64,000 nucleotides of DNA, taken from the NCBI GenBank assembly GCA_943787445.1, contig CALSML010000026.1, positions 1-64,000 of the forward strand. Reading direction: 5' to 3'. The notes under the pieces were generated by a model. It was not told the origin of the DNA. It ran no database searches and saw nothing but the letters and a program-made list of their open reading frames with translations. Origin of the DNA: an uncultured Alphaproteobacteria bacterium (GTDB lineage Bacteria > Pseudomonadota > Alphaproteobacteria > UBA6615). The position numbers and the translations under genes are program-made. Shown here piece after piece: positions 1 through 5,297 of the stretch; position 1 is the stretch's first letter; every line of letters begins with the position of its first letter.

Positions 1-467
1 CGATTGCAGGCGCTCGCGGGTCGGGCGGCGGTGGTGTCGGTCTTGAGCCACGGCTCGACCGAGGCGAGCTGGGCGTAGACGTGCTTCAGGTCCGGCACCA
101 GGTCCTTGACCACCGGCATGATGGGGCAGCGGATAGACGGCACGTCGCCCTTGCATCTCGTCGATGGCCTTGGTGCAGGCCAGCGTGTTGGTGCCGTCGA
201 TGTTCATCGCGCAGGACCCGCAAATCCCCTCGCGGCAGGAGCGCCGGAAGGTCAGGGTCGAGTCGATCTCGTTCTTGATCTTGATCAGCGCGTCCAGAAC
301 CATCGGGCCGCATTCGTCCATGTCGACTGAAGGTATCGAGCCTGCGGGTTCTCGTCGTCGTCCGGCGACCAGCGGTAGACCTTGAAGGTCCGCGGTCTTG
401 GCGTCGCCGGGTATGCCTTCTTGCCCGTCTTGACCTTGGAGTTCTTCGGCAGCGAGAATTCAGCCAT
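1..467 (-). CDS. sdhB: Succinate dehydrogenase iron-sulfur subunit (SdhB), 3' end beyond window, frameshifted
   Basis: Iron-sulfur subunit of respiratory complex II, carrying electrons from the SdhA flavin to the membrane quinone site. The start at 467 gives [17 protein letters not shown], then FKVYRW, typical of alphaproteobacterial SdhB. Further along, in other frames, one reads [20 protein letters not shown], the [2Fe-2S] cysteine cluster of the family. At least two indels separate these pieces (near 310 and 150), so no single ORF covers the gene. It is the last gene of the minus-strand sdhCDAB order, and the C-terminus with the other clusters lies partly off the window. The conserved motifs in all frames argue for sequence errors rather than decay. 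Confidence 0.9.
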
Positions 468-500
468 GGGTTTCTTCCTCTTATGCCGTCTGCCAGCGGC

Positions 501-2287
501 TTAGTAGACGCGCGCCTTGCGGCGCGATGTACTCGACCTCGTTGGTCAGGGTGTCAGTGTGCACGGGCGGTAGGTCGACGTCGCCTTGGTCTTCGATACC
601 AGGCCAGCGTATGCTTCATCCATTTCTCGTCGTCGCGATCCGGATAAGTCCTCGCGCGCATGGGCGCCGCGGCTTTCCTTGCGCGATTCGGCCGAGATCA
701 TGGTGACCGATCGCCTGGCCATCAGGTTGTCCAGCTCCAGCGTCTCCACCAGGTCCGAGTTCCAGATCAGCGAGCGGTCGTTGACCGACAGATCCTCGCA
801 TGCCCGAGGCATGCTCTGATCTTGCGTCACGCCTTCGTCCAGCAGCTCATCGGTGCGGAACACCGCGCAGTGATTTGCATGGCGCGCTGCATGTCGAGAC
901 GCGCGATTCGGCCGTCGCCGTATCGCCCTTGGCGTTGCGGAACGTGTCGAGCCGGGCGACCGCGTTGTCGCCGGCATCGCCGGGCAGTGGCTTTGCTGCT
1001 CGCCCTTGGGCACGGTCTCGGCCAGCGCGTAGGCCGGCCGCGCGGCCGAACACCACCAGATCGAGCAGCGAGTTGGAGCCCAGCCGGTTGGCGCCATGCA
1101 CCGAAACGCAGGCCGCCTCGCCGATCGCCATCAGGCCCGGGCAGACCGGTCCGGATCGCTCGGCGGTCGGGGCGAGCACCTCGCCGTGATAATTGGTCGG
1201 GATGCCGCCCATGTTGTAATGCACGGTCGGCAGCACCGGGATCGGCTCCTTGGTGACGTCGACGCCGGCGAAGATGCGTCGCGGTCTCGGAGATGCCCGG
1301 CAGCGCAGTTCGCCAGCACGTCCGGGTCCAGATGCTCGAGATGCAGAATGATGTGATCGCTGTTCGCGCCGACGCCGCGGCCTTCGCGGATCTCGATCGT
1401 CATCGAGCGGCTGACCACGTCGCGGACGCCAGATCCTTGGCGGTCGGCGCATAACGCTCCATGAAGCGTTCACCTTCGGAATTGGTGAGATAGCCGCCTT
1501 CGCCGCGCGCGCCCTCGGTGATCAGGCAGCCTGCGCCGTAAATGCCGGTCGGGTGGAACTGCACGAACTCCATATCCTGCAGCGGCAGGCCGGCGCGCGC
1601 ACCATGCCGTTGCCATCGCCGGTGCAGGTATGCGCCGAGGTGCAGGAGAAATAGGCGCGGCCATATCCGCCGGTCGCCAGCACCGTCTTGTGCGCCTGAA
1701 AGCGGTGCATGGTGCCGTCGTCCATGTTCCAGGCCATGACACGCCCGGCACTCGCCGTCTCGTCCATGATCAGGTCGATGGCGAAATACTCGATATAGAA
1801 TTCCGCGTGTTGCGCAGGCACTGCTGATAGAGCGTGTGCAGCATCGCGTGGCCGGTGCGGTCGGCCGCCGCGCAGGCGCGCTGGGCCGGTGCCTTCGCCG
1901 TAATCCGTGGTCATGGCCGCCGAACGGGCGCTGATAGATCTTGCCTTCTTCGGTGCGCGAGAAGGGCACGCCGTAATGCTCCAGCTCGATCACCGCCGGG
2001 ACGGCCTCGCGGCACATGTATTCGATGGCGTCCTGGTCGCCCAGCCAGTCCGAGCCCTTGACGGTGTCGTACATGTGCCAGCGCCAGTTCGTCCTCGCCC
2101 ATATTGCCGAGCGCGGCCGCGATCCCGCCCTGGGCGGCCACGGTGTGGAGCGGGTCGGAAAGACCTTGGTGATGCACGCGGTCTTCAGCCCTTCCAGGGT
2201 CATGCCCAGGGTGGCGCGCAGACCGGCGCCGCCGGCCCCGACCACGACGACGTCATAGGTATGATCGACGATCTCGTATGATTTCAT
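501..2287 (-). CDS. sdhA: Succinate dehydrogenase flavoprotein subunit (SdhA), multiply frameshifted
   Basis: Catalytic FAD subunit of complex II, oxidising succinate to fumarate. The ATG at 2287 gives [20 protein letters not shown] with the FAD dinucleotide-binding GxGxx[32 protein letters not shown] and an in-frame-shifted C-terminus ending in ARVY before the TAA at 501-503 identify the family. The span of about 1787 nt matches the usual 595-600 residues. At least six indels break it; one removes a C in the Arg-Ser-His stretch that normally precedes TVAAQGG. It lies just downstream of sdhD and 34 nt upstream of sdhB. The reading frame as given could not make a working enzyme, but conservation is full length. 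Confidence 0.92.
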
Positions 2288-2298
2288 GGTCTTGTATC

Positions 2299-2682
2299 CT
2301 ATAGGGCGAGCTTGAGCACGGAGAACACGGCACCGACGCCGAGTACTAGGAAGATGAATTTCATCGTGATGAGCCAGCAGAATTTCCAGCCCTCGTGATG
2401 GATGTAATCCTCGACGACCACCTGGACGCCGAGCGCGGCGTGATAGAGGGTCGCGACGACCATCAGGATCACGGCGATGGCCACCAGGGGTTGCGCCAAC
2501 CATTCCGCCGTTTCGGCGTGTCCGGCGCCGGCGAGGCCGGCCACCGAGGCGACGAACCAGAGGATCAGGGGAACCAGCGCGATGGCGGTCAGGCGCTGCA
2601 TCCACCAGTGATGGACGCCCTCCTTTGCGGAGCCCATGCCGCGCACTCGGCCGAGATCGGTTCGCATGCTCTTGTCACTCAT
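2299..2682 (-). CDS. sdhD: Succinate dehydrogenase membrane anchor subunit SdhD
   Basis: Hydrophobic membrane anchor of complex II, 127 residues, the usual size. Three membrane segments are visible at roughly residues 30-52, 63-85 and 100-122. The [20 protein letters not shown] segment is the conserved quinone- and haem-proximal region of alphaproteobacterial SdhD, and [17 protein letters not shown] carries the haem-ligand His of helix II. The frame is intact, unlike sdhA and sdhB downstream. It lies 18 nt after sdhC and 11 nt before sdhA on the minus strand, clearly one operon. Confidence 0.93.
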
Positions 2683-2700: not shown

Positions 2701-3084
2701 CTAGCCCGCGAGCCCGATGGCCCAGGCCACGGCTGTCAGCACAACGGAACCCGCGACGGTCGCCCAACCGGACTTGTAGGCGGTTTCAAGCTCGAAGCCA
2801 TAGCCGGCGTCCCAGAACAGATGCCGGATGCCGTTGCACAGATGAAAGAAAACCGCCCAGGAAAATCCCAAAAGGATCAGCAGGCCAAGCCAAGACCCCA
2901 TGATCCCCTGGACATAGACGAAGTAGTCGGGGCCCGCGCCGGCGGCGACAAGCCACCAGACCAGAACAATTGTCCCCACCGCCAGCGCGACACCCGTCGC
3001 CCGATGGGTAATCGACAGCACCGAGGTCAGCTGTGGCCGATAGACCTGCAGATGCGGGGAGAGCGGTCTGTTGTCGGTCGCCAT
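2701..3084 (-). CDS. sdhC: Succinate dehydrogenase cytochrome b556 subunit SdhC
   Basis: Cytochrome b subunit of complex II, 127 residues. The N-terminus RPLSPHLQVYRPQLTSVLSI with THRATGVAL is the classic SdhC signature, where His and Arg contact quinone. The HLCNGIRHLFWD segment supplies the haem-b His ligand. Three hydrophobic segments are predicted by eye at about residues 30-50, 65-85 and 105-125. It is the first gene of the minus-strand sdh operon, preceded by a good sigma-70-like promoter. The frame is intact. Confidence 0.94.
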   Translation of the reverse strand: MATDNRPLSPHLQVYRPQLTSVLSITHRATGVALAVGTIVLVWWLVAAGAGPDYFVYVQGIMGSWLGLLILLGFSWAVFFHLCNGIRHLFWDAGYGFELETAYKSGWATVAGSVVLTAVAWAIGLAG

Positions 3085-3309: not shown

Positions 3310-3358
3310 TGTGGAAAACCTGTGGAGGGATTGTGATCAGTGTCCCGAGTTTTGCACA
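3310..3358. promoter_or_regulatory. Two DnaA-box-like nonamers upstream of the structured RNA
   Basis: TTTTCCACA on the minus strand (3310-3318) and TTTTGCACA on the plus strand (3350-3358) both fit the relaxed DnaA-box pattern TTWTNCACA. They lie between the divergent sdhC promoter and the putative RNA gene. About four such matches are expected by chance in a window this size, so only their closeness and intergenic position make them worth noting. Confidence 0.25.
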
Positions 3359-3438
3359 GAAATCTCTCTTTCAGTCGTGATTGCGCGTTGCTCGCCGGTG
3401 CCCGGGCGGCCGAACATAATGGCGCATTTATTGGCGTG

Positions 3439-3468
3439 TTGACGTGTCTCTCGTCAGGCCGGAATCAC
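3439..3468 (+). promoter_or_regulatory. Weak candidate promoter for the structured RNA
   Basis: TTGACG at 3439-3444 is followed after 17-18 nt by GAATCA/AATCAC, a poor -10. Initiation near 3475 would place the first stable hairpin (3477-3504) right at the 5' end. Another possible -10, CATAAT at 3415-3420, has no good -35. The start of the RNA is therefore uncertain by about 50 nt. Confidence 0.22.
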
Positions 3469-3469
3469 C

Positions 3470-4281
3470 GTTCGTGGGGGTTCAGGCATTGCGGAGCGGA
3501 CCCCGAGGGGCCGCACCGGAGGATTGAGGCGGGACGCCGGATTCGAGTGAAGGCCGTAAGGTCATTGCATGAAGATGGGGGAAGTCAGCAGACGAACAGG
3601 GTTCTTCGGAACCACTCCCCTCGGTGGAGGTTCGTCACAACGTCCGGGTGTCCGATGCGGGAAACCGTGTTTGGGCAGGCCGGGCAAAGCCAGTTCATCT
3701 GCGCCGCGTCAGGCCGTCTTCGGACGACCGGATCGTGACAGGGTGAAACGGCGGGGAAGGTATCGTCACGCAGGTGGCGGTCGTTCTGGCAGGGTTTTCC
3801 GTTCGCGGAGGATGCTGTCGGTGAAACAGGCTTCGGCCTGATTTTGCAGGAATGTCCGTTGCGCTCTGCTCCAGGCTCTCGCCGGCCAGGAATTCAGAGA
3901 TGGCGCACCAGGATGAAAAGGCTGCCTCCGGGTGGCTGGATTGGAACGGGGTGGCACAGTGGCAGGACCGGACCTAAGGTTTCGGGTTCCTTCGGGAACG
4001 CGGACAGGGTGGTGGAAACACCGCCAAGTTCGGAAGTGACGTCGGATGGACCGTATCGGCCAGGGGTATGTTCCATCGGTGAAGCTGAACGAAGCTTTCG
4101 TTGGTAGATGCAAAGGGTCTGAAGCACCGGGGGCAACTCTGGCGCAGGAAGATCGGGAAGGCGTCAGGCGTTGAGGGCTCCGCGTCCATGCACCTGGCGC
4201 CTTCTGCTTTTCGGCTGCAAGTTCGGCGCAGGTTATACTGGACCACAAAAAAAGCCCGGTGCTTTGGCACCGGGCTTTTTG
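3470..4281 (+). ncRNA. Large structured non-coding RNA candidate (~0.8 kb), class not recognised
   Basis: No ORF here looks like protein, but the plus strand is full of hairpins with stable RNA tetraloops. C(UUCG)G loops cap perfect stems at 3600-3613, 3715-3726, 3827-3840 and 3986-3999; a G(UUCG)C loop caps a 7-bp stem at 3795-3812. GNRA loops cap 3552-3563 (GUAA), 3654-3671 (GAAA) and 4008-4025 (GAAA, 7 bp). Larger units: 3591-3597 pairs perfectly with 3630-3636 and encloses two hairpins (three-way junction); 3649-3653/3673-3677 and 3644-3647/3680-3683 extend the second GNRA hairpin; 4001-4005/4028-4032 stacks under the third; 4045-4050/4072-4077 and 4193-4201/4225-4232 (one bulge) form outer helices; 3477-3483/3498-3504 opens the RNA. 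An intrinsic terminator follows. RNase P, tmRNA, SRP, 6S and group II intron cores were looked for and not seen. Function unknown. Confidence 0.75.
4252..4280 (+). terminator. Strong intrinsic terminator, possibly bidirectional
   Basis: An 11-bp perfect stem (4252-4262 with 4267-4277) has a TTTG loop and is GC-rich, with five T on the plus strand and a seven-A run before it, which reads as U on the minus strand. It closes the structured RNA and insulates it from the pyridoxal kinase-like gene, whose start is 123 nt further on. Confidence 0.9.
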
Positions 4282-4403
4282 TCAGGCGTCAGAACCGGGC
4301 TCCGCATCCAGGCAAATGTATACTTCACGGGTATCAAGCCGGTTTCGCTTCGGTCAAACGAATTCTTGTGTACAGACGTGATTCCGTCGCATGAAGGTTG
4401 CCG

Positions 4404-5297
4404 ATGGTCGGAATTCTCTCAATCCAGTCGCACGTGGCTTTCGGTCATGTAGGCAATGCTGCGGTGGCATTTCCGCTGCAGACGCTCGGTCATGACGTTT
4501 GGACGGTGCCGACGGCCGTGCTCTCCAACCATGCAGGTTACCGGGAAACCAGCGGCGCGGTTTTACCAGTCGAAACGGTTCGCGATCTTCTCAACGGGTT
4601 GATCCCACGCGGAGTGGACGCGAGATGTGAGCTGATCCTGTCGGGATATCTAGGTTCTGTTCCCGTCGGGAGGGCTGTTCTGGAGACCGTGGCGCAGTTT
4701 CGTGCGACCCGCAGTGATGTCCGGTATTGTTGTGACCCGGTTATCGGGGATCGTGACAGCGGTGCGTATGTCGCCGATGGACTGTCCGAATTTTTTCGTG
4801 ATGTGGCACTTCCCGCGGCGAATATTCTGACCCCGAATCTCTTCGAACTCGAATGTCTGACAGATTGTACGCCTGGCGCGCTTGAAGGGGCGGCTCCCGG
4901 AGAGGTCATCCGTGCGGCCCGGCATCTGCTCGCGCGCATGCAGCCGGGTGGTTGTGTTCTGGTGACCAGCGCCGCAATGCCGGGTGGCTTGCCGGATCAC
5001 ATCGCCATGCTGGCGATCGAGCCTGAAACGGCATGGGGCGTGGAGACTTCACGCTATGGCTTCACGATACCGCCCCATGGCGCCGGGGACCTGGTTGCAG
5101 CCTTGTTTGCCGCGAATTATGTGCAAACTGGTGATGCGGCTACGGCGCTGGGGGATTGTGCCGCACGGCTGCATGGGGTTTTCGCCCAGACTGCCCGATG
5201 TGATGGTGCCGAACTTGAACTGGTCGCTGCGCGGACCGGAATTGTATCTCCGGATCAGAAATTCGAGGTCAGGTCCCTCGAACCCCGTGGCGCGTAA
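4404..5297 (+). CDS. pdxY: Pyridoxal kinase-like protein (PdxY/PdxK family)
   Basis: Ribokinase-superfamily kinase that phosphorylates pyridoxal to PLP in vitamin B6 salvage. The N-terminus MVGILSIQSHVAFGHVGNAA matches the IQSHVxxGHxGN start of PdxY. SNHAGY, SGYLGS, CDPVIGD, the LTPNLFELE segment and a C-terminal HGAGDLVAALF (catalytic Asp in GAGD) follow in the right order. Length is about 297 residues against about 287 usual. I prefer the ATG at 4404 over the TTG at 4398 because GAAGG lies six bases before it. It is a lone gene after the terminator of the structured RNA; LysE follows 94 nt later on the same strand. The symbol is by family similarity. Confidence 0.85.
   Translation: MVGILSIQSHVAFGHVGNAAVAFPLQTLGHDVWTVPTAVLSNHAGYRETSGAVLPVETVRDLLNGLIPRGVDARCELILSGYLGSVPVGRAVLETVAQFRATRSDVRYCCDPVIGDRDSGAYVADGLSEFFRDVALPAANILTPNLFELECLTDCTPGALEGAAPGEVIRAARHLLARMQPGGCVLVTSAAMPGGLPDHIAMLAIEPETAWGVETSRYGFTIPPHGAGDLVAALFAANYVQTGDAATALGDCAARLHGVFAQTARCDGAELELVAARTGIVSPDQKFEVRSLEPRGA

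Follow-up and report, generated by a model that had tools for sequence, protein, structure and literature searches.

A large structured RNA with a DnaA-box-like array upstream and a candidate antisense partner in uncultured marine Alphaproteobacteria

Results and discussion

The region between sdhC and a pdxY-like gene in the window (the whole stretch of DNA analysed, 64,000 nucleotides) contains a large non-coding RNA whose fold is maintained by paired substitutions among homologues. It is preceded by a DnaA-box-like array with conserved spacing and followed by a candidate small convergent RNA complementary to its 3' terminator hairpin. The three-way junction and the GNRA hairpin from which this analysis started are read here, with a probability of roughly 0.6, as a domain of a large RNA of an undescribed alphaproteobacterial class, which would be linked to DnaA, controlled by an antisense RNA and active as a regulator or a scaffold. 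Concerning the general plan, the locus would begin with a 5' control element (a DnaA-box-like array in most families) and a promoter, followed by a structured RNA body that is long and evolves rapidly; a conserved terminator hairpin would form the 3' end. The features are collected in Table 1.

Few large structured bacterial RNAs of unknown role have been found and, to our knowledge, none carries a conserved DnaA-box array or has a dedicated antisense partner against its terminator. No description of this RNA class was found in the literature, in a search limited to open papers.

Table 1. Position of the features at the locus (coordinates of the window)
Feature	Position	Strand	Remarks
sdhC	2701-3084	-	Upstream neighbour; Pfam PF01127; conserved neighbour across the family
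DnaA-box-like array	3310-3358	+	TGTG-type boxes at 3310, 3321 and 3332, inverted box TTTTGCACA at 3350-3358; conserved spacing
Promoter-like region	3387-3420	+	GTTGC at 3387-3391 (-35-like), GAACATAAT at 3412-3420 (-10-like); predicted from sequence
Large structured non-coding RNA, about 790 nt	3424-4212	+	Predicted 5' end; covarying consensus fold; no shared ORF
Closing helix, 5' strand	3424-3436	+	Pairs with 4099-4111; 12 bp, 96% paired, 5 double changes
Neighbouring domain	3437-3590	+	Closed by 3437-3443/3584-3590; 7 bp, 99% paired, 2 double changes
Three-way junction	3591-3636	+	Outer stem 3591-3597/3630-3636; 97.8% paired, double changes at 4/7 pairs
First inner hairpin	3600-3613	+	3600-3604/3609-3613, UUCG-type loop; double changes at 4/5 pairs
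Second inner hairpin	3615-3629	+	3615-3618/3626-3629, loop with CCUC; double changes at 3/4 pairs
Long irregular hairpin	3640-3687	+	GNRA loop GAAA at 3661-3664; double changes at 13/18 pairs
Hairpin motif CTCCAGGCTCTCGCCGGCCAGGAATTCAG	3869-3897	+	Strongly conserved
Motif CGTATCGGCCAGGGGTATG	4052-4070	+	Strongly conserved
Closing helix, 3' strand	4099-4111	+	Pairs with 3424-3436; consensus fold of 12 homologues
3' hairpin and U-rich tail	4156-4212	+	Hairpin 4156-4205, loop GGGCUCCGCGUCC; predicted intrinsic terminator; R3 matches
Candidate antisense RNA, small (about 78 nt) and convergent	4247-4324	-	Predicted 5' end; complementary body, covarying terminator
Antisense terminator	4247-4276	-	Double changes at 10/14 pairs; 238/245 cells paired
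Antisense body	4285-4313	-	Complementarity with the hairpin at 4156-4205, from duplex energies
Antisense promoter-like element	4331-4359	-	GTTTGACCG...TTGATAC; conserved in 18 loci
pdxY-like pyridoxal kinase	4398-5297	+	Downstream neighbour; absent in L031, L040 and L044

Genomic context and distribution

The genome of the window is an uncultured marine alphaproteobacterial assembly, and the homologous loci were drawn from assemblies of a similar kind. The large RNA is present in 22 of the 24 genomes of the window's family, 21 of them recognised by the model and one more (G005, locus L018) in which it is cut by the contig end. The two genomes without it are G010, which is 79% complete and in which sdhC was not found, and G012. 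No match appeared in the plasmid and viral collections. The RNA element is duplicated in some genomes, with the two copies located apart from each other (L189, at G016:C10:29093-29176; L210, on G030:C10; G087:C8:3302).

The gene order sdhC, RNA, pdxY is conserved in the window's family. The location between these two genes would fit a leader or 3' UTR of one of them; however, both the large and the antisense RNA stay in the three loci where the kinase was lost, and the RNA locus has different neighbour genes in other families. A divergent housekeeping RNA is opposed by the fact that RNase P RNA and 6S RNA are encoded elsewhere in most family genomes (20/24 and 21/24, respectively, with several 6S matches below the curated cut-off), and no Rfam match corresponds to the RNA. 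The Rfam 15 scan of the window detected only a tRNA, together with weak sub-threshold matches at terminator hairpins, and the scan of the RNA loci of other families gave no match over the RNA. A coding region is not favoured either, because no ORF on the RNA strand has a common start and stop in at least 6 of the 12 homologues. Taken as a group, these conventional explanations (housekeeping RNA, leader or UTR, coding region) are very improbable.

Several other observations were made around these loci. Two short ORFs on the minus strand (start/stop 4076/4009 and 3431/3338) are common to 6 of the 12 homologues. In L083 the RNA hairpin is followed, about 440 bases further on, by a borderline Rfam match to the rpsB sRNA (940-1062, minus strand, 40.5 bits for a threshold of 40), and L086, a locus reached only through a weak match of the model R1, carries 5_ureB_sRNA at 305-589 (90 bits). 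Furthermore, sdhA (window 1-2600) is split over several overlapping frames. Since the ORF of the homologous loci is intact (about 597 aa) and the start of the contig is close by, assembly or sequencing errors are suggested as the origin of these apparent frameshifts.

The three-way junction and the GNRA hairpin

The initial annotation had proposed a three-way junction at 3591-3636 followed by a bulged hairpin with a GAAA loop. The fold of the single sequence in this region is mildly unusual (z = -2.1, with 6 of 200 shuffles equally good); as this was not persuasive, the junction was judged by its homologues. A set of 39 pairs was tested in 13 aligned homologues against 500 shuffles, with a control in which the partners were slid by 1-3 columns. 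Pairing was retained in 82.2% of the cells (73.9 ± 1.0 in the shuffles), 24 of the 39 pairs showed double changes (14.4 ± 2.1 in the shuffles) and the covariation score was 0.408, a value reached by none of the 500 shuffles (0.256 ± 0.016). When the partners were slid, pairing dropped to 34-44%. A wider alignment of 19 sequences gave the same outcome.

These results revealed that the junction is real, with pairs exactly at the positions first proposed. The outer stem (GACGAAC with GTTCGTC, 7/7 pairs) passed the check for paired substitutions (Table 1), and it is not a case of conserved sequence without paired changes. The first and second inner hairpins are paired in 92% and 83% of the cells, respectively, and the CCTC columns of the second are invariant in the alignment. 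Regarding the adjacent hairpin, the irregular stem and the GAAA loop were both found, while its extent is slightly longer than the 3644-3683 initially given; 84% of its cells are paired, and the tetraloop is kept as a GNRA (GAAA, GCAA or GTAA) in 18 of 19 sequences. RNAalifold, applied to the same 13-homologue alignment, recovered the outer stem together with the GNRA hairpin and, of the two inner hairpins, the first; a two-pair variant took the place of the second. In the deeper clade L013-L019 the seven-pair outer stem is built from different bases in a slightly shifted register, with 6-7 of the 7 pairs held.

An additional outer stem, 3585-3589/3688-3692, was included among the 39 pairs and discarded, as it is mis-registered (45% paired in this test); the true partner of 3584-3590 is 3437-3443.

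The same region had also been put forward as the most suitable one for anchoring a covariance model, and this expectation did not hold. The model of the junction domain (R2) matches the window and L013-L015 (E values from 2e-4 to 5e-4), which is a part of its own family, and gave no match in any other family, while the model of the 3' hairpin (R3) reaches many families. Since the body of the RNA cannot be aligned between families, the junction itself is family-specific.

Fold of the whole RNA

The conserved stretch extends from about 3310 to 4216. The consensus fold of this region, obtained with RNAalifold from 12 homologues, contains more than 30 helices and has an energy of -234.6 kcal/mol, whereas shuffled alignments reach -114.2 ± 5.7 (z = -21). 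The junction is placed between the neighbouring domain and the GNRA hairpin, all of them within the long-range closing helix (Table 1). In L107, from genome G016, the RNA body at about 1200-1500 presents a run of CCTTCGGG-type hairpins resembling expanded repeats.

The DnaA-box-like array and the promoter-like region

Three TGTG boxes at relative positions 0, 11 and 22 are followed by an inverted box at 40, which ends in CACA at 45-48. This spacing is exact in 21 of the 22 loci of the window's family and in seven loci of five other families (two in f8, two in f59 and one each in f109, f67 and f110). The boxes of f1 deviate from the strict TTATNCACA; those of the window differ from it at one or two positions, the third box at more. 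The families f65, f64, f23 and f123 have related arrangements that are not identical. In f65 (L169-L172) the RNA is preceded by several DnaA-type boxes that are placed differently from those of the usual array.

The array is linked to the RNA. Its pattern occurred three times in 2.16 Mb of background strand-bases, each time at an RNA of the present class. Moreover, a search of 171 genomes with the array pattern alone found three loci, all with the 3' hairpin downstream. Two of them were already known to carry it; in the third (L210, on G030:C10) the hairpin lies 483 bases downstream, at a place that the hairpin search had not reported.

An RNA hairpin formed by the array itself (3320-3333/3346-3359) was rejected: its pairs never change on both sides, and the conservation is better explained by the spacing of the boxes.

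A cluster of DnaA-box-like sequences with a T-rich stretch behind it, as seen in several families, would also fit an origin of replication, where DnaA boxes accompany AT-rich DNA. However, the GC skew does not switch at the RNA locus and thus the locus is not taken as an origin: no sign change occurs there in G009 and G011, the skew does not flip in either G287 or G361, and in G171, assembled as a single contig, the locus is inside one arm and far from both switch points. An origin at this position is extremely improbable.

The array could instead act mainly at the DNA level, titrating or reactivating DnaA in the manner of datA and DARS. The RNA would then be secondary, for example a transcript by which the site is cleared or exposed. 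In favour of this, several families have a fixed array away from the origin, and the inverted box opposite tandem boxes is in general terms also found in DARS. DARS promotes the release of ADP from DnaA, and its geometry is that of three DnaA boxes at fixed spacing, with box I opposite and head-to-head to boxes II and III. Nevertheless, the E. coli DARS1 and DARS2 candidates are head-to-head at 0/14/26, whereas the present array has three tandem boxes and a diverging last one at 0/11/22/40, and a titration site needs neither hundreds of bases of covarying RNA structure nor an antisense partner. We consider this explanation unlikely.

Downstream of the inverted box, GTTGC is conserved about 37 bp away in several families, and either GTTGC or TTATTG occurs at a near-constant distance; the motif would fit a -35 element. 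The -10-like GAACATAAT of the window would place the start of the RNA at about 3424, which is the first base of the closing helix.

The 3' terminator hairpin and the antisense RNA

R3, built from f1 and f65 loci, has matches in many alphaproteobacterial families. The core of the 3' loop is invariant in 18 family loci. The weak R3 matches at L181-L184, which have no box array, may be chance terminators. In many of the other matches the hairpin has the form GTCAGG-[UUCG hairpin]-...CCCCGCGTCC...GCACCTGACGC followed by a T-rich tail. The loop carries CCCC in several families and CUCC in that of the window.

A minus-strand promoter-like block, a short body and a terminator are found just downstream of the large RNA in all 18 aligned loci. 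The duplex between the antisense body and its cognate hairpin was more stable than those of shuffled bodies in the 21 cases tested (z from -2.7 to -6.5), a significant complementarity of small RNA and target such as characterises an antisense pair; a pair of this kind is further defined by an effect of the pairing on the level or activity of the target. For the small RNAs of f1 and f65, the best partners are the hairpins of their own family, with the exception of G007, whose cognate duplex is no better than the non-cognate ones. A peptide encoded on the minus strand at 4285-4330 was discarded, since the frame is not kept in the alignment, as read by eye.

The antisense element is present in four families (f1, f65, f64 and f109). 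In G008 there is no antisense RNA at the locus and the 3' loop is changed. Adjoining the large RNA, no antisense RNA was found in f67, f8, f59, f23 and G016; the loop core is nevertheless conserved in f67, f8 and G016, so the loop must serve a different role there, unless the antisense gene is located elsewhere in the genome. The 3' loop probably has a second partner.

The relation could also be reversed, with the small RNA as an effector on mRNAs and the large RNA as its sponge or decoy target. The strong complementarity in all tested pairs and the invariant loop core would agree with it. On the other hand, a sponge would need the hairpin and not the entire folded body, and the large RNA exists without a neighbouring small RNA in the five groups just mentioned. 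In the window's genome the exact loop core GGCTCCGCRTCC occurs only at the 3' hairpin and in the antisense RNA, and no other exact 12-base partner of it was found. This reversed relation is also considered improbable.

A possible mode of action

Returning to the reading of an antisense-regulated large RNA, DnaA or another protein that reads DnaA boxes would bind the array and set the transcription of the large RNA. The transcript would then fold into a compact multi-domain structure and act as a structured regulatory or scaffold RNA, while the antisense RNA, by pairing with the 3' hairpin in both its loop and its arms, could lower the stability of this hairpin or block its target-binding loop. 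In this way, a promoter read by DnaA and a 3' hairpin checked by an antisense RNA would tie the status of the replication initiator to a cellular process; this complete scheme is put forward as tentative, at somewhat less than even odds. If DnaA sets the transcription, the replication initiator would have the large RNA as a direct output. Since this RNA class recurs in several alphaproteobacterial families, these ideas should be testable in a cultured relative.

Comparison with known systems

DARS1, DARS2 and datA of E. coli are DnaA-control sites made of non-coding DnaA-box clusters outside the origin (PMC5742627). The present locus shares with them a non-coding cluster of boxes away from the origin; nevertheless, those are DNA sites with another box geometry, and here a structured RNA follows.

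CcnA of Caulobacter is a 182-nt non-coding RNA at the origin, near DnaA boxes, whose CCCC loop is the active part (PMC8959179). Both are alphaproteobacterial non-coding RNAs near DnaA boxes. The present RNA is set apart by its length (about 790 nt) and by its position away from the origin. The CCCC loop of CcnA is a lead worth following, since several families carry CCCC in the conserved 3' loop described above.

In the RNA I/RNA II pair of ColE1, a small RNA shows complementarity with a structured segment of a longer one, as is the case here. In contrast to ColE1, the small RNA would be encoded by a separate convergent gene that does not overlap its target gene, and its body looks like the terminator hairpin of the target copied in reverse.

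Finally, GOLLD, ROOL and OLE are recognised by forming RNA-only homo-oligomers. They are large ornate bacterial RNAs with intricate folds and a largely open function (PMC12286853). The present RNA is likewise large, structured and non-coding, with an intricate fold deduced from comparative folding; it differs from them in its lineage, and none of them was matched in the Rfam scan of the window. Compared with these RNAs, the DnaA-box array upstream and the antisense partner at the terminator are features of the RNA described here.
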